From an uncultured Acetobacteraceae bacterium (GTDB lineage: Bacteria; Pseudomonadota; Alphaproteobacteria; Acetobacterales; Acetobacteraceae): a DNA stretch of 34,759 nt. The stretch lies in assembly GCA_937873225.1 (NCBI GenBank), contig CALMVN010000239.1:1-34759 (forward strand), in the 5' to 3' direction. The notes beneath the pieces are model-generated. The model was not told the DNA's origin, made no database searches, and worked only from the letters and a program-made list of their open reading frames with translations. The position numbers were made by a program, and so were the translations under genes. Position 1 is the first letter of the stretch, and every line of letters begins with the position of its first letter. Positions 6,744-23,564 of this stretch are shown here, piece by piece.

Positions 6744-7466
6744 TCAGAACGGCAGCACGATGTCCATCAGCTGCTGCCCGTAGCGGGGCGTCTGCAGGTC
6801 GGTCAGCTGTCCCTTGCCGCCGTAGGAGATCCGGGCCTCGGCCATGCGGTCATGGGTGATGGTGTTGTCCCCGGTGATGTCCTGCGGCCGGACGATGCCG
6901 CTGACCTGCAGGATCCTGAGCTCGCTGTTGACACGGACCTCCTGGCGCGCGCTGACCACGAAGTTGCCGTTCGGCAGCACCTGGGTGATGGTGCCGGCGA
7001 GCCGCAGGGTGACGGTCTCGGTCCGCTTGGTGCTCCCGGTCGACACGTTGCTGTTGGTGCTGTTGGTCGAGACCGAGGCGGCACTCAACAGTTTCTGCTT
7101 GAGCCCGAACAGGCTCGGCACCCCCATGCCTTCCGACCCGGTGCGGGTGGCGGTGCCGTTGTTCTCGAAGTCGGCGTTGTCGGTGATGTCGACCAGCACC
7201 GTCAGCAGGTCGCCCACCTGCGCGGCGCGCTGGTCCTTGAAGAAGGCACGGCTTCCGGGCCGCCAAAGGCTGGCGAGGTCGGGCGGTGTCTGCTGCAGCG
7301 GCGGCATCGGCATGGTCAGTGGCCTGTAGTCGCGGGCCGCGGTCGGATCGGTGATGGGCGTCATGCTGGGCGGACGTCCCAGATCGGACAGCCGCGATAA
7401 GGCGCCGCAGCCGGACAGAAGGGAGCAGAGCGCCAGCCCGGCGATGGTGGTCGACCTGTTGATCAT
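6744..7466 (-). CDS. flgH: Flagellar L-ring protein FlgH
   Basis: Lipobox 'LCSLLSGCGAL', 'SLWRPGSRAFFKDQRAAQVGDLLTVLVDITDNA', 'GNFVVSARQEVRVNSELRILQVSGIVRPQDI'. Confidence 0.95.
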   Translation of the reverse strand: MINRSTTIAGLALCSLLSGCGALSRLSDLGRPPSMTPITDPTAARDYRPLTMPMPPLQQTPPDLASLWRPGSRAFFKDQRAAQVGDLLTVLVDITDNADFENNGTATRTGSEGMGVPSLFGLKQKLLSAASVSTNSTNSNVSTGSTKRTETVTLRLAGTITQVLPNGNFVVSARQEVRVNSELRILQVSGIVRPQDITGDNTITHDRMAEARISYGGKGQLTDLQTPRYGQQLMDIVLPF

Positions 7467-8518
7467 GGATAGGGCGCCTCCTGCGCCAGCCTGCTCCAGT
7501 TCCCGCCGCCGCCTGCCGACGCTCCGGATGCCAGCTGCGGCAGCCCGCCTTGCGGAACGCCGGACTGCAGGATCACCGGTGCGGTTCCGGCGTCGATCCT
7601 GACGTCGGTCGTGCTCGTGACTTGGCCGATCAGCACCGCATGGGACACGCTGTTGATCACGTGGATGCGGTCGCCGGCGGCACCCGCCTCCAGGGCCACG
7701 CCTGCGGTCGTCAGCGTCAGGCCGGCGCCTTCGAGCCGCAGCACCACGGGACGGCCGCGGCTGACCAGCATCGGCCTGACCAGCATGTCCCGCGTCAGCG
7801 GGACGCCGCCCGATCCCTGCTGCCTCAGCGCAAGGCCGTCCACATCCGCGATCGTCGTCATCGGCGTCCCGTGCAGGCTGCTGCTGCGGACGCGGACGAC
7901 CTGCAGGTCGGACGCCGACAGCAGCGAACCGGCCGGAAGCGGCTGGTTCAGCGCAAGCACGTTCACCTGCTGCTCGGCCCGACCGGTCACGCGCAGGGTG
8001 ACGGGATCGGCATCCGGCTCCGGGAACGCGAGCAGCGCCGAGAAGCGCCCGCTCTGGGCATCGTAGTCGAGCGTCTGGATCTCGGGCGCCGTCGTCACCT
8101 CCGCCGGCAAGGGAGGCGAGGCGAAGGCACCCAGGGAGACGTCGCTTCCAGGCGGCGCACCGCTTGCGATCAGGGCAGGCTTGAGGACCGCCATGATCTC
8201 CTCCCGCCTGACCACACGGGCCGGCCGGTCAAGAACGGCGGAGGCGTAGCTTGCGCCTGGCTGCCAGTCGACGCCGAACTGGGACGCGATCGCGACCAGC
8301 TGGCTGAACGGAACGGTGATGTGTTGTCCAGGAGCAGGAGCCGGGCCGATGTCGCAATCCTGTCCGGGTTGCAGGTCGCTGAACAGGTCCGACAACCTGA
8401 CGGTGTCGCCGTGCAGGGCCACCTGCCTGCGCAGCGCAGCAGCCGAGGCCGGCACGTCGTGCGCGAGAACCGCCGCGGCAACCGCCAATCCGGCGATGAA
8501 GCGTGGAGCACGGCTCAT
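7463..8518 (-). CDS. flgA: Flagellar basal body P-ring formation chaperone FlgA
   Basis: SAF-like C-terminus 'VLALNQPLPAGSLLSASDLQVVRV', 'DRIHVINSVSHAVLIGQVTS'; flanked by flgH and flgG with start/stop overlaps. Confidence 0.9.
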   Translation of the reverse strand: MSRAPRFIAGLAVAAAVLAHDVPASAAALRRQVALHGDTVRLSDLFSDLQPGQDCDIGPAPAPGQHITVPFSQLVAIASQFGVDWQPGASYASAVLDRPARVVRREEIMAVLKPALIASGAPPGSDVSLGAFASPPLPAEVTTAPEIQTLDYDAQSGRFSALLAFPEPDADPVTLRVTGRAEQQVNVLALNQPLPAGSLLSASDLQVVRVRSSSLHGTPMTTIADVDGLALRQQGSGGVPLTRDMLVRPMLVSRGRPVVLRLEGAGLTLTTAGVALEAGAAGDRIHVINSVSHAVLIGQVTSTTDVRIDAGTAPVILQSGVPQGGLPQLASGASAGGGGNWSRLAQEAPYP

Positions 8519-9300
8519 TTGAGGTTGGTCAGCGTCTGCATCATGTCGTCCGACGTGGTGATCACCTTGCTGTTCATCTCGTAGGCGCGTTGCGCGCTGA
8601 TGAGGTTGGTGATCTCGCTGACGACGTTGACGTTCGAGCTTTCGACGAAACCCTGCATGACGCTGCCGAAGCCGGACGCGCCGGGGGTGCCGGTGGTGGG
8701 GGCACCGGATGCCGTCGTCTGCACCAGCATGTTGTCCCCCTCGGCCTCCAGGCCGGCCTCGTTGGGAAACACGGCCAGCTGGAGCTGGCCGACCGTCTGG
8801 GTGGCGGTCTGTCCGGCCAGGGTGACCTGCACCTGCCCCGACGAGTTGATGGTGATACTCTGGGCGTTGGTGGGCACCGTGATCCCCGGGGCCACCGCGT
8901 ACCCGTCGGACGTCACGATGGTGCCGTCCGAGGCCAGTGCCAGGGTGCCGTCGCGCGTGTAGGCGGTGTCGCCGGACGGCAGGGTGACCTGGAAGTAGCC
9001 GTTGCCCTGGATGGCGAGGTCGAGGCTGTTGCTGGTCTGGGTGAGGTTGCCCTGCTCGCTGATCCTGTAGATGGCAGCCGTCTTCACGCCGAGGCCGACC
9101 TGGGCGCCGGACGGCACGACGCTGCCACTGTCGGAACTGTTCGAGCCGACGCGACGGAGGTCCTGATAGATCAGGTCCTGGAACTCGGCACGCCTGCGCT
9201 TGAAGCCGGTCGTGGTCATGTTGGCGATGTTGTTCGAGATGACCTCGACGTTGGTCTGCTGGGCCTGCATCCCGGTGCCGGCGATATCAAGTGAGCGCAT
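8515..9300 (-). CDS. flgG: Flagellar basal-body rod protein FlgG
   Basis: 'MRSLDIAGTGMQAQQTNVEVISNNIANMTTTGFKRRRAEFQDLIYQ' and 'NVNVVSEITNLISAQRAYEMNSKVI'. Confidence 0.96.
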   Translation of the reverse strand: MRSLDIAGTGMQAQQTNVEVISNNIANMTTTGFKRRRAEFQDLIYQDLRRVGSNSSDSGSVVPSGAQVGLGVKTAAIYRISEQGNLTQTSNSLDLAIQGNGYFQVTLPSGDTAYTRDGTLALASDGTIVTSDGYAVAPGITVPTNAQSITINSSGQVQVTLAGQTATQTVGQLQLAVFPNEAGLEAEGDNMLVQTTASGAPTTGTPGASGFGSVMQGFVESSNVNVVSEITNLISAQRAYEMNSKVITTSDDMMQTLTNLK

Positions 9301-9331: not shown

Positions 9332-10099
9332 TCAGCCCTGCTGCTGGACGATCTTGTCGATTGCCGACTGCTGCCGCTGGTTCTCGCTTTCGACGAACTG
9401 CGAAACGAACCCGAAATCGCGCTGGGTCTGGATCATCTGCGTCAGCTCGTTGATCGGCTGGACGTTGCTGGTCTCGACCATCCCCTGGGCGACCTTCGGC
9501 TGCGCTGCCGGAGTGGTTCCGGCGGTGGCGCGGTAGAGCGTGCCGCCCTCCGGCACCAGCTGGTTGGGATCGTCGACGGTCACCACGCCGACCTGGCCGA
9601 CGGTTCCGTTCTCGGTCGAGATCGTGCCGTTGCCGGAAATGCGGATGTTCGTGTCCGACGGCGACAGCTGGAGCGGGCTGCCGTTCCTGTCCAGCAGCAG
9701 GTTTCCCGACGAGTCGGCGATGTGGCCGTCCGGCATCAACCCGAACTTGCCGGAACGGGTGAGACGGGGACCCGCGGACGTCGAGACGGTGAAGAAGCCC
9801 GAGCCGCTCAGCGCCATGTCGAGCGGGTTGCCGGTCTGGGTCAGGCTGCCGTCCTTCCGGTCGAGATAGGTCGCCCTGTCCTGGGTGTAGTGCAGCACGG
9901 CACCGCCGGCCGGCGCGTCCACGCCATGCTGCTGCGACAGGTAGTCGCTGAACAGCACGCGCTGCGCCTTGAAGCCGTCCGTGTTGGCGTTCGCGATGTT
10001 GTTCGCGATCACGTCCATGGTCCGCTGCTGGGTGTCGAGACGCGACAGCGCGATGTAGGTGGTGTTTTCCATCTGGGAACCCCGAAGACGCCGCATCAT
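9332..10099 (-). CDS. flgF: Flagellar basal-body rod protein FlgF
   Basis: 'MENTTYIALSRLDTQQRTMDVIANNIANANTDGFKAQRVLFSDYL', 'NVQPINELTQMIQTQRDFGFVSQFVESENQRQQSAIDKI'; likely start at the internal MENTTY. Confidence 0.92.
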   Translation of the reverse strand: MMRRLRGSQMENTTYIALSRLDTQQRTMDVIANNIANANTDGFKAQRVLFSDYLSQQHGVDAPAGGAVLHYTQDRATYLDRKDGSLTQTGNPLDMALSGSGFFTVSTSAGPRLTRSGKFGLMPDGHIADSSGNLLLDRNGSPLQLSPSDTNIRISGNGTISTENGTVGQVGVVTVDDPNQLVPEGGTLYRATAGTTPAAQPKVAQGMVETSNVQPINELTQMIQTQRDFGFVSQFVESENQRQQSAIDKIVQQQG

Positions 10100-10112
10100 C
10101 GGGCATGACAGC

Positions 10113-10127
10113 TTAACGGGCGGTTAA
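10113..10127. promoter_or_regulatory. CtrA-type binding site TTAA-N7-TTAA (box 1)
   Basis: TTAACGGGCGGTTAA, embedded in the perfect inverted repeat GCTTAAC-GGGCG-GTTAAGC; flgF/fliL divergent intergenic region. Confidence 0.7.
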
Positions 10128-10165
10128 GCCCGCCGCCGCATCGAGGGCGACCTTGTCCATCCCGC

Positions 10166-10180
10166 TTAAGCGCCCGTTAA
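10166..10180. promoter_or_regulatory. CtrA-type binding site TTAA-N7-TTAA (box 2)
   Basis: TTAAGCGCCCGTTAA, upstream of fliL; reverse complement TTAACGGGCGCTTAA is almost identical to box 1; 53 bp from box 1. Confidence 0.7.
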
Positions 10181-10235
10181 CCAGCGCGGCCCCATCATGC
10201 TCCAGGGCCAGAACGGTCCGGACAGGAGCGGGCGA

Positions 10236-10709
10236 ATGAGCAGCAAGGATGCGGCGGCAGGTCCCTCGGGCGGAGGAAAGAAGCGGGTCCTCATGATCGG
10301 TGCGGCGATGGCAGTGATCGCCCTGGCGGCCGGTCTCTGGTTCAGCGGCATCCTGAAGCATGCCCGTCGACAGGCAGCGCCGAAGGCGGTGGCGGCAGTC
10401 GAGGCGCCTGTGCTGATCGACCTGCCCGACATCGTCTCGAACCTCGACACCGGCGGCCATCGCGCCACCTTCATCAAGCTGCACGCGAAGATCCAGGTCG
10501 GTCATGCTGCCGAGGCCGCCGCGCTGCAGGCCGGGATGCCGCAGATCCTCGACATCTTCCAGTCCTACCTCAGGAGCACTCGTCCGGAGGAGCTGCGTGG
10601 CGGCGAGGGCACCTACCGTCTGCGCGAGGCGCTCATGAATCGCATCGACATGACGCTGCCACCCGTCCAGGTGACGGATCTGCTCTTTACCGAGATCCTC
10701 GTGCAATGA
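10236..10709 (+). CDS. fliL: Flagellar basal body-associated protein FliL
   Basis: N-terminal TM 'VLMIGAAMAVIALAAGLWFSG', 'LPDIVSNLDTGGHRATFIKLHAKIQV..LQAGMPQILDIFQSYLRSTRPEELRGGEGTYRLREALMNRI'. Confidence 0.93.
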   Translation: MSSKDAAAGPSGGGKKRVLMIGAAMAVIALAAGLWFSGILKHARRQAAPKAVAAVEAPVLIDLPDIVSNLDTGGHRATFIKLHAKIQVGHAAEAAALQAGMPQILDIFQSYLRSTRPEELRGGEGTYRLREALMNRIDMTLPPVQVTDLLFTEILVQ

Positions 10710-11806
10710 GCGGCATGAGCGGCAACCCGTCCGACGAGGACCTGGCGTCGGCCTGGGCATCCTCCATCGAGGACGAAGGCGGCGGCGCCCTGGACACCGA
10801 GGTGACCCCGGACGCCACGCGCATCCTGAACCAGGCCGAGATCGACAGCCTGCTCGGCTTCGACCACGGCGGCGCGGAGGACGTCGACAGCAACGGCATG
10901 CAGCGCATCATCAGCTCCGGGCTGATCTCGTACGAGCGCCTGCCGATGCTCGAGATCGTGTTCGACCGGCTGGTCCGCATCATGTCGACGTCCTTGCGCA
11001 ACTTCACCAACGACAACGTCGAGGTGTCGATCGACAACGTCGTCTCGCTCCGCTTCGGCGACTACCTCGACTCCGTGCCCCTGCCGGCGATGTTCGCGGT
11101 GTTCAAGGCCGAGGAATGGGAGAACTACGGCCTGATGGTGATCGACTCGGCGATGATCTACTCGATCGTCGACGTGCTGCTGGGCGGCAGGCGGGGCACG
11201 GCGGCGATGCGCATCGAGGGCCGGCCCTACACCACCATCGAGCGCACCCTGGTCGAGCGCCTGATCAGGGTGGTGCTGGCTGACCTGTCGTCGAGCTTCG
11301 ACCCGCTTTGCGCGATCACCTTCCGGTTCGAACGCTTGGAGGTCAACCCCCGGTTCGCGGCGATCTCCCGCCTGTCGAACGCCGCCGTGCTGGCGCGCAT
11401 GCACATCGACATGGAGGACCGGGGCGGACGGATGGACCTGGTGCTTCCCTATGCCACGCTGGAGCCGGTGCGCGAGCTTCTGCTGCAGCAGTTCATGGGC
11501 GAGAAGTTCGGTCGCGATGCGATCTGGGAGACCCACCTCGCCGAGGAGCTGTGGAACACGGAAGTCGACCTGGACGTCGTGCTCGACGAGCAGCCGATGC
11601 GCCTGTCCGACATCATCGGGCTCAAGCCCGGAAGCCACTTCATCCTGCGACAGGGCCGGGAAGCGCCGGTCCAGCTTCGCTGCGGCCAGGTGGTGCTGTT
11701 CGAAGGGCGCATCGGGCGCCGCAAGAACCGCGTGGCGGTCCGGATCGATCAGGTCGTCGGCAGGCTGCCTGGTACGACCGACCCGCTTGGATCGAGGAGA
11801 AGCTGA
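10706..11806 (+). CDS. fliM: Flagellar motor switch protein FliM
   Basis: N-terminal CheY-binding motif 'ILNQAEIDSLLGFD' and FliM core 'LPMLEIVFDRLVRIMSTSLRNFTNDNVEVSIDNV..RFGDYLDSVPLPAMFAVFKAEEW'. Confidence 0.96.
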   Translation: MSGMSGNPSDEDLASAWASSIEDEGGGALDTEVTPDATRILNQAEIDSLLGFDHGGAEDVDSNGMQRIISSGLISYERLPMLEIVFDRLVRIMSTSLRNFTNDNVEVSIDNVVSLRFGDYLDSVPLPAMFAVFKAEEWENYGLMVIDSAMIYSIVDVLLGGRRGTAAMRIEGRPYTTIERTLVERLIRVVLADLSSSFDPLCAITFRFERLEVNPRFAAISRLSNAAVLARMHIDMEDRGGRMDLVLPYATLEPVRELLLQQFMGEKFGRDAIWETHLAEELWNTEVDLDVVLDEQPMRLSDIIGLKPGSHFILRQGREAPVQLRCGQVVLFEGRIGRRKNRVAVRIDQVVGRLPGTTDPLGSRRS

Positions 11807-20310: not shown

Positions 20311-20719
20311 CCTTCTTGAACTGCAGCTGCGCGGTGTTGGTGCCCTTCTTTGTCACCGCGGTGACGGCGCAGCTGTAGACGCCGTTGTCCTTGGCCGTGC
20401 AGTCGGCGTTGGTCACGCTGAAGTCGTTCACGTCGTAGGGGCCGCTGAACAGCCCGAGCGTGTTGGCGGAGGTTTGCTGGTTGGCGGCCTGCATCCGGGC
20501 CTGGATGACCTGCTGGATGTCCGCCTTGGTCGGCGCGCCGGCCTGGCCGCAGGCGGCGGCGAGCAGAGGCAGCGCCAGCAGGAGCCGGCTCGGGCGGATG
20601 AACGATCGACGGACGTAAGCGGGCAAGGGTTCGGCCTCCGGATGGAACGGGACCACGAGCCCGCACCGGATCGCAACGCGGAACGATCGGTCCGGTTCGC
20701 GACCGGTCACGCCCGCCAC
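20279..20719 (-). CDS. Hypothetical lipoprotein (start uncertain)
   Basis: Lipobox 'LLLALPLLAAACGQAG', then a ~90-aa domain ending 'VKKGTNTAQLQFKKVNGGWTLVQP'-like; the N-terminal part of the ORF is probably not translated. Confidence 0.6.
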   Translation of the reverse strand: MAGVTGREPDRSFRVAIRCGLVVPFHPEAEPLPAYVRRSFIRPSRLLLALPLLAAACGQAGAPTKADIQQVIQARMQAANQQTSANTLGLFSGPYDVNDFSVTNADCTAKDNGVYSCAVTAVTKKGTNTAQLQFKKVNGGWTLVQP

Positions 20720-23301
20720 GCCGCCTCGACCGCCCGCATCAGCGCCTGCTCGTCATAGGGCTTGCGCAGAAGCACGGCGTGGCCGAGCGCCTTCCCGGCC
20801 TCGTCGCAGGCGTCCTCGCCGGTGGCGAACACCAGGCCGATCCCGGGCTGCCGCTCCAACGCAAGCCGGGCCAGCGCGACCCCGTCCAGGCCGGGCAGGC
20901 CGAGATCGGTCACCAGCACGTCGAAGCCGTGCCGGTCCAGCAGCTCCAGCGCCGCTTCCGCGCTGCTCGCCTGGGCGACCACGTGCGCCTGGCCCGCGAG
21001 CAGCTCGGCGCTGTTGTCGCGGATCAGCGCGTCGTCCTCCACCAGCAGAAGCTGCAGCGGACGCCGCCGGACGCGCATCGCCCGGACATCCCGCTCAACG
21101 GCAACGCCGCGCGCGGCCAGCACCTGGCGCAGCTTCCGTGCCAGCGCCTCCGACGTGTACGGCTTGGACAGCAGCTCGACGCCCGGATCGAGCCGGCCGC
21201 CCTGCATGATCGCGTTCTCGGTGTAGCCGGAGGTGAACAGCACCGCGAGGCCGGGGATGCGCTCCCGGGCAAGGCGCGCCAGCTCCGGGCCGCGCATCGG
21301 TCCCGGCATCACCACGTCGGTGAACAGCAGGTCGATCCGCACCCCGCTGTCCAGCAGGTTCAGCGCCGCCGCGGCGTCGCGCGCCTTGAGCACGCGGTAG
21401 CCGAGCTCGGCCAGCATCGCCACCACGGTGTCGCGCACGCCCTCGTTGTCCTCGGCGACCAGGACCGTTTCCGTGCCGCCCCGGACCGGCCCCGGCTCGA
21501 CCGCGGGCGCCACCTCCTCGACCTCGACCGTGCGCGGCAGCAACAGCCGGACCGTGGTGCCGCGGCCGGGCGCGCTGGTGATCCGGACATGGCCGCCGGA
21601 CTGCTTGACGAAGCCGTACACCATGGACAGCCCGAGGCCGGTGCCCTTGCCTTCCGGCTTGGTCGAGAAGAACGGCTCGAACGCCTGCTCCATCACCTCC
21701 GGCGTCATGCCGGCGCCGGTATCGGTCACAGCCACGGACACGTACTGGCCGGGCGCCGCCTCGCCGTGCCGGCCCGCCTGGTCCTCGTCCAGGGTGGCGT
21801 TGCCGGCCTCGATGAACAGGCGCCCCTGCGCGTCCATCGCGTCGCGGGCGTTGATCGCCAGGTTGAGCAGCGCGTTCTCCAGCTGCGCCGGGTCGACCAG
21901 CGTGTCCCACAGCCCGCCGGCGGTCGCGACCTCGATCTCGATCCCCTCGCCGAGCGAGCGGCGCAGCATGTCGTCGAGGCCGGCGATCAGCCGGTCGACC
22001 CGCACCACCCGGGGCTCCAGCGGCTGCCTGCGGCTGAAGGCGAGCAGCTGCGCCGACAGCCTGGCGCCGCGCGCGACCCCTTCCAGGGCGTTGGCGATGC
22101 GGCGCTCCGCGCGCGCGTTGCCGGCCACGTCTCGGCCCAGCAGCTGCAGGTTGCCGCTGACCACCTGCAGCAGGTTGTTGAAGTCGTGCGCCACGCCGCC
22201 GGTGAGCTTGCCGATCGCCTCCATCTTCTGCGACTGCCGCAGCCGCGCCTCGGCGGCCTCGCGCTCCGCCAGCGCCGCCGCCACCTGCTGTTCCAGCACC
22301 CGGGCGCGATGGCGCTCCTCCGCCAGCACCCGGACGCCGGACAGCGCCGCGGACAGCTGCGAGGCCAGCAGCTCGAAGAAGCGGTGGTAGTCCGGCGTCT
22401 GCGGCAGGCGGCGGTTGGCCGCCAGCACCAGCACCCCGGCCACGTCCCGCCCGGCATGAAGCGGCAGCAGCACCAGCCGGTCGGAGGCGGAGCCGGGCGG
22501 GTTGCGCATGAAGCGGCTTGCCTGCAGGACCTCGGCCGCACCGCCCGCCGCCACGCGCGCCACCGCCGCCAGCCTCGGATCGCCGCACCCCTCGGGCGAA
22601 GCGGGCGCCTCGGCCAGCTCCGGATCGGGAATGCCGCCATGCGCCGCGGCAAGGCCCAGCCTGTCCCGGTCGCGCAGGTAGACCAGCGCGCAGGGCACGT
22701 CGGCACCATCCGTCCCGGCCAGCGAGGCGACGAAGCGTCGCGCCGCCTCGGTCGCGGTCTCGCTGCGCGCCATCACCGACAGCGCCCCCAGCGTCCGCAG
22801 CCGGCGCTCGTCGGTGACCCGTCCGGTCTGGTCCGACACGATGCAGAACACGCCCGGGATGCCCTCCCCGTCGCGGACCGGGCTGTAGGACACGTCGAAA
22901 TACGTGTCCTCCTCGAAGCCGGAGCGTTGCTGGCGGAACAGGTGGCTGCGGCTGTCGAACGGGATGCCGGTGCGCTGCACGCCGCGCAGCAGCGGTTCCA
23001 GCATGTCCCACAGCGCCGCCCAGCCGAAGCGGGCGGGACGGCCGAGGGCGGCCGGGTGGTTGTTGCCGATCGCCGGCGCGAACGCGTCGTTGTAGAGCGC
23101 CACCAGCTCCGGGCCCCAGAACAGGCAGATCTGCGCGCTCGACGACAGCACCAGGCCGAGTGCCGCCTTCAGGCTGTCCGGCCACGCGTCCGGGATCCCG
23201 AGCGGCGAGCCCGACCAGTCGGCGGTCCGCAGCCGCGCGCCGCAATCGCCGCCGTGCAGGAAGAGCGGCGAGCGCCGGACATCGTGGAGGAAAGCGTTCA
23301 C
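20707..23301 (-). CDS. Hybrid sensor histidine kinase (PAS-GAF-HisKA-HATPase) with two C-terminal receiver domains
   Basis: 'GGVAHDFNNLLQVVSGNLQLLGRDV', 'NALLNLAINARDAM', 'PFFSTKPEGKGTGLGLSMVYGFVKQSGGHVRI', receivers 'VLVAEDNEGVRDTVVAMLAEL..DLLFTDVVMPG..SKPY' and 'LLLVEDDALIRDNSAELL..DVLVTDLGLPG..RKPYDE'; probable GTG start (V-NAFLHDVRRSPLF) at 23301, ORF track extends to 23538. Confidence 0.92.
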   Translation of the reverse strand: MNAFLHDVRRSPLFLHGGDCGARLRTADWSGSPLGIPDAWPDSLKAALGLVLSSSAQICLFWGPELVALYNDAFAPAIGNNHPAALGRPARFGWAALWDMLEPLLRGVQRTGIPFDSRSHLFRQQRSGFEEDTYFDVSYSPVRDGEGIPGVFCIVSDQTGRVTDERRLRTLGALSVMARSETATEAARRFVASLAGTDGADVPCALVYLRDRDRLGLAAAHGGIPDPELAEAPASPEGCGDPRLAAVARVAAGGAAEVLQASRFMRNPPGSASDRLVLLPLHAGRDVAGVLVLAANRRLPQTPDYHRFFELLASQLSAALSGVRVLAEERHRARVLEQQVAAALAEREAAEARLRQSQKMEAIGKLTGGVAHDFNNLLQVVSGNLQLLGRDVAGNARAERRIANALEGVARGARLSAQLLAFSRRQPLEPRVVRVDRLIAGLDDMLRRSLGEGIEIEVATAGGLWDTLVDPAQLENALLNLAINARDAMDAQGRLFIEAGNATLDEDQAGRHGEAAPGQYVSVAVTDTGAGMTPEVMEQAFEPFFSTKPEGKGTGLGLSMVYGFVKQSGGHVRITSAPGRGTTVRLLLPRTVEVEEVAPAVEPGPVRGGTETVLVAEDNEGVRDTVVAMLAELGYRVLKARDAAAALNLLDSGVRIDLLFTDVVMPGPMRGPELARLARERIPGLAVLFTSGYTENAIMQGGRLDPGVELLSKPYTSEALARKLRQVLAARGVAVERDVRAMRVRRRPLQLLLVEDDALIRDNSAELLAGQAHVVAQASSAEAALELLDRHGFDVLVTDLGLPGLDGVALARLALERQPGIGLVFATGEDACDEAGKALGHAVLLRKPYDEQALMRAVEAAWRA

Positions 23302-23564
23302 AGCGGTCCTGTCAGGCCGTGGCGGGGGCCGCACGCCGGATCGTGACCGGTCCTGCGTGTGGCCGGACGGATTAGGCACGCTTTTCCGTTGCCAGACCAT
23401 TACGTTTCCGCTCGAACCGTCCCGGATGTCGGCTTGTCCGGCATTTCGCGGCCGGGACGGTCGTTCCGCCGCACCGGCAGGCGTACCGCCGCCGATCGGC
23501 GCATGGCATCCGCCGGGCGCGGCCGCCATCCTGTGCACCGGACAAAAGGGGAGGGCAGCAGCCC

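Follow-up and report, generated by a model that had tools for sequence, protein, structure and literature searches.

The closest described systems are the class II flagellar promoters of Caulobacter, in which early flagellar genes carry a TTAA-N7-TTAA full site at the -35 position, and the fla2 flagellar genes of R. sphaeroides. The rod and ring genes of Caulobacter depend on RpoN and FlbD and belong to class III (PMC6180460, PMC3096577), so that one would predict the same class for flgF-flgG-flgA-flgH. In fla2, flgB2p-fliI2p and fliL2p-fliF2p are divergent CtrA flagellar promoters, among them a design in which each promoter has a single site; 23-24 nt separate the end of the CtrA site from the mapped start, A-11 is invariant, and periplasmic parts are thought to be directly under CtrA (PMC6180460). 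CckA, ChpT and CtrA are intact in that system, FlbD is absent and RpoN is uninvolved (PMC6180460). The flgF/fliL intergenic region analyzed here resembles the Caulobacter class II promoters in its full sites, their -35 position and the early flagellar genes involved, and it resembles fla2 in its divergent design, in the distance from box to (here predicted) start, in A-11 and in the apparent placing of periplasmic parts under CtrA. Unlike Caulobacter, it has a CtrA box at flgF-flgG-flgA-flgH, and unlike fla2, its genome retains rpoN and an FlbD-type gene and is missing ChpT. Judging from sequence comparison, we consider it likely that flgF and fliL have divergent CtrA-activated promoters, that the flgF promoter replaced a sigma-54 promoter, and that CtrA acts on them without the CckA-ChpT relay.

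Both boxes lie in the flgF/fliL intergenic region at the coordinates given in an earlier note on this DNA, and both match TTAA-N7-TTAA exactly (Table 1). When the window (the whole stretch of 34,759 bases that was analyzed) was shuffled 100 times with its dinucleotides preserved, the motif never appeared, and the window's only four TTAA tetramers are those within the two boxes. A genome-wide count, which the earlier note had called for, gave 10 sites in 4.06 Mb vs. none for the reversed motif used as a control, and none of the 10 sites falls within a likely gene. A search for the paired-box pattern across 300 genomes of the family was uninformative: it was mostly AT-rich genomes that responded, and they responded to the control too. 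The flgF/fliL paired arrangement was repeated in only one congener (G002).

Table 1. Predicted promoter elements and genes at the flgF/fliL locus (window coordinates).
Feature	Position	Strand	Basis
CtrA-type full box, flgF promoter	10113..10127	(-)	exact match; TTAACCGCCCGTTAA read in flgF direction, forward-strand letters TTAACGGGCGGTTAA
CtrA-type full box, fliL promoter	10166..10180	(+)	exact match; TTAAGCGCCCGTTAA
predicted -10, flgF promoter, GATGAT	10095..10100	(-)	12 nt after box; anchored comparison
predicted -10, fliL promoter, CATCAT	10193..10198	(+)	12 nt after box
flgF (rod protein)	9332..10072	(-)	TIGR02490 199.5 bits, over cut-off; Pfam; first gene of flgF-flgG-flgA-flgH
flgG	8515..9300	(-)	Pfam flagellar rod domains; name by gene order
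flgA	7463..8518	(-)	ChapFlgA
flgH (L-ring)	6744..7466	(-)	FlgH
fliL	10236..10709	(+)	FliL
fliM	10706..11806	(+)	FliM

The two putative promoters share one geometry, with a CAnnnT-like -10 hexamer 11-12 nt downstream of the box. In the congeners, the flgF hexamers are GATCAT, GATAAT, GACAAT, and CATAGT, each 11 nt after the box. The predicted -11 position is an A in 18 of 21 fliL promoters of other genera (background 15%), in four of five flgF promoters and in all six flgK promoters. Transcription is predicted to start near 10088 (-) for flgF and near 10205 (+) for fliL, and the conserved predicted distance between box and -10 would place each box in the -35 region. Since this geometry agrees with that of R. 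sphaeroides fla2, the boxes are each expected to act on a promoter of their own. The flgF start codon (ATG at 10072, minus strand) was fixed by means of homologues, and the fliL ATG is most likely the one in Table 1; a longer alternative beginning at 10197 would share bases with the predicted -10. In the mechanism that we propose, two sigma-70-type promoters within 10072-10236 would point in opposite directions, each activated by CtrA seated on its own box at about -38 to -24; flgF-flgG-flgA-flgH would be transcribed from one and fliL-fliM from the other.

The orthologous intergenic regions, whose comparison had been proposed earlier, were examined in five genomes of the genus (G000 to G004, i.e., the source genome and four congeners). 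The TTAA halves persist in all five. The flgF-side box always lies exactly 40 bp before the flgF ATG and has 0, 0, 0, 1, and 1 mismatches; no member has a mismatch in the fliL-side box. Outside the genus the fliL box is mostly degenerate, reading nnAA-N7-TTAA in most other genera. The N7 spacers vary among the congeners. The earlier note had also remarked on the 53-bp distance between the boxes, equated with about five helical turns, and on their near-identity in inverted orientation. Both features are true of the source genome but unconserved in the genus: in the four congeners the boxes are 71, 142, 35, and 34 bp apart, a range of 34-142 bp that leaves helical phasing unsupported, and the pairing between inverted, near-identical spacers is not kept. 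Because spacers and distance both vary, the spacing and the inverted near-identity are incidental. An AT-rich spacer or hairpin devoid of any regulatory role would account for inverted near-repeats, which occur in the source genome alone, but the congeners keep only the TTAA halves and the distance to the -10, not the pairing between boxes, and we regard this explanation as scarcely credible.

The region upstream of flgF was compared in 30 Acetobacteraceae genomes, nine of which (the five of this genus plus G005, G013, G026, and G029) form one clade in a FlgF+FliM tree with a support of 0.92. A sigma-54 element, TGGCAC-N5-TTGC with 0-1 mismatch, precedes flgF in 21 of 21 genomes outside the clade, and no CtrA-type promoter was found upstream of flgF in those genomes, most of which share the divergent flgF/fliL gene order. 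In contrast, in all nine clade genomes the flgF ATG is preceded at 40-48 bp by a CtrA-type promoter, and none has a sigma-54 site there, the best candidates having at least four mismatches to TGGCAC-N5-TTGC. A clear full box at flgF is confined within the clade to this genus; the halves are degenerate in G005, G013, G026, and G029 (the four shuffle p values being 0.007, 0.017, 0.083, and 0.087). By this comparison, the clade exchanged a sigma-54 promoter at flgF for the CtrA-type promoter that contains the flgF box; the fliL box dates far back in the family, and the flgF box was acquired. The flgF operon is thus, on the same comparison, not an ancestral CtrA target, a point that the earlier note missed. 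The switch probably took place in the ancestor that this genus shares with the acetic acid bacteria.

Loss of sigma-54 or FlbD was considered as a cause of the switch and rejected, as rpoN is present in the source genome and an FlbD-type activator gene sits within a flhF-flhA-flbD-fliN-fliG cluster. In addition, flgE retains a sigma-54-like site with one mismatch. With these three elements persisting, the hierarchy is only partly rewired. Genome-wide counts of sigma-54 sites did not differ clearly between clades. In other genera (L028-L052, upstream of flgF), inverted CCGGCA...TGCCGG sequences were noticed by eye close to the sigma-54 promoter of flgF, and they resemble the ftr (FlbD) sites of Caulobacter. 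A literature search, with most subscription journals outside it, returned no report of flgF promoter replacement or of CtrA receiver changes.

The search for ctrA that the earlier note had called for found an orthologue beside fliI, C325:7198 (L134:7198-7929), with 54% identity to Caulobacter CtrA. Its best match is CtrA and its winged-helix domain is conserved; the neighborhood with fliI is common to most of the family, which supports orthology. The top NCBIfam match is NF045991, at 326.5 bits vs. a cut-off of 350 that was set for Rhodobacterales. The DNA-binding domain is 64% identical to that of Caulobacter CtrA in G000, and the 26-residue recognition region is nearly identical. Both boxes are, as judged from these sequences, very probably CtrA docking sites. 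The genome does encode several OmpR-type paralogues, one of which could bind the boxes instead of CtrA, but with the orthologue's DNA-binding domain so highly conserved and each box an exact Caulobacter full site, we find this very unlikely. Two further ideas were dropped: relocation of ctrA into the flagellar cluster, because ctrA adjoins fliI in most family members, and autoregulation, because only a one-mismatch, unconserved site was found upstream of ctrA.

The receiver domain of this CtrA is altered. In an alignment to solved OmpR-family regulators, D8 matches the second member of the conserved acidic pair, and it is replaced by G, S, S, G, and G in G000 to G004, respectively, while D51 is kept. 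The source genome's CtrA thus lacks the full combination of acidic pair (E7/D8) and phospho-acceptor (D51), having D8 changed to G; in G000 the conserved lysine is kept along with D51, and in G005 D51 and the lysine are both lost. Elsewhere in the family a natural D51E is found (G012, G013, G026, and G029), as it is in the named Acetobacter musti, Gluconacetobacter, Novacetimonas, and Acidomonas, while about 70 CtrAs of other alphaproteobacteria from the same retrieval as the named cases are intact. The altered receivers, including those of named acetic acid bacteria, are at loci L134:7198-7929, L155-L184, and L185-L204. In Caulobacter, CtrA D51E is a phosphomimetic mutant. The natural D51E of Acetobacter, Gluconacetobacter, Novacetimonas, and Acidomonas is the same substitution, whereas this genus keeps D51 and loses D8. 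Second CtrA-like paralogues stand beside a canonical CtrA in G011, G019, G020, and G024 (L269-L272), and some of their receivers are strongly decayed.

ChpT, another component whose search had been called for, was not found in the source genome with Pfam PF10090; the genus gave at most marginal matches inside long reading frames, and matches were clear in about two dozen other genera. A second profile, built from 16 homologues (15 of them from Acetobacteraceae), scored 183-252 bits in true holders of ChpT and at most 25 bits in G000-G005, inside long or short unrelated reading frames. ChpT was undetectable by profile search in the nine-genome clade. The Caulobacter relay assumed in the earlier note is therefore at odds with a genome in which two profile searches find no ChpT and the CtrA receiver is altered; what stands of the CtrA control proposed there are the CtrA-type boxes at two divergent promoters, the orthologue and the conservation in the genus, and what lacks support is the ChpT part of the relay and the phasing. 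Within the window, a 943-aa hybrid histidine kinase with a GAF and two receiver domains is encoded at 20707-23538 (minus strand). Its kinase core resembles that of CckA, and at 362 bits to NF046020, for which the cut-off is 1000, it is a candidate only.

Previous studies reported that Rhodospirillales lack chpT and suspected that it had diverged or been substituted (PMC2877005, PMC8116508). It is conceivable that the boxes are ordinary CtrA boxes served by a CckA-ChpT-CtrA relay as intact as that of Caulobacter, with a ChpT too diverged to be seen and neutral changes in the receiver. ChpT is known to be hard to recognize (PMC8116508, PMC2877005), and D51 is kept in the genus. However, the 16-homologue profile recovered the ChpT of G031 at E 7.7e-54, where PF10090 gave E 4.7e-4, and found nothing comparable in the clade. 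Moreover, changes in the receiver pocket track the absence of ChpT: among all genomes in which both could be scored, the acidic pair or D51 is altered in 12 of 14 that lack ChpT vs. 0 of 19 that have it (Fisher p 3e-7, uncorrected for phylogeny), the exceptions being G017 and G034, which lack ChpT and have an intact pocket. Altered receivers are spread over at least three distinct lineages. We therefore consider an intact relay improbable. With ChpT undetectable and the receiver changed in this lineage, CtrA probably acts independently of the CckA-ChpT relay, being either constitutively active or controlled by a different input; since D51 is kept in the genus, phosphorylation by another donor is possible.

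Taken alone, the boxes would be a routine CtrA find. It is the comparison that exposes a sigma-54 to CtrA-type replacement at a flagellar operon, places it on one branch of the tree, and shows it to go along with repeated losses of ChpT and a decaying CtrA phospho-site. Besides divergence or substitution of ChpT, the receiver changes point to another possibility that can be tested, namely that CtrA stopped needing phosphate, and the natural D51E of culturable acetic acid bacteria makes this idea directly testable. More tentatively, and with doubts that slightly outweigh our confidence, we suggest that in the Acetobacteraceae branch that unites this genus with the acetic acid bacteria, a ChpT-free CtrA that would act independently of phosphorylation (as a natural phosphomimetic D51E in some genera) took the rod and ring promoters, and in this genus that of flgK, from sigma-54/FlbD, thereby freeing these late flagellar genes from both the assembly checkpoint and the cell-cycle relay.

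The flgK promoter corresponds to an exact CtrA box between flgE and flgK (L021:5148-5162), with CATCAT 11 nt downstream. This box has 0-2 mismatches in the genus and G005 and is absent in most other genera, where the flgE-flgK gap mostly leaves no room for a promoter. Some of the remaining TTAA-N7-TTAA sites of the genome precede several other genes. An exact box lies 40 bp before a GAF-GGDEF-EAL gene (L015:3995-4009), with CATAGC 11 nt downstream, making this gene a possible c-di-GMP target of CtrA. Finally, two exact CtrA boxes, at 1073 and 6357, lie on contig L017, which also carries GT87 glycosyltransferases and genes for a Tad/Flp pilus (prepilin peptidase, CpaB).
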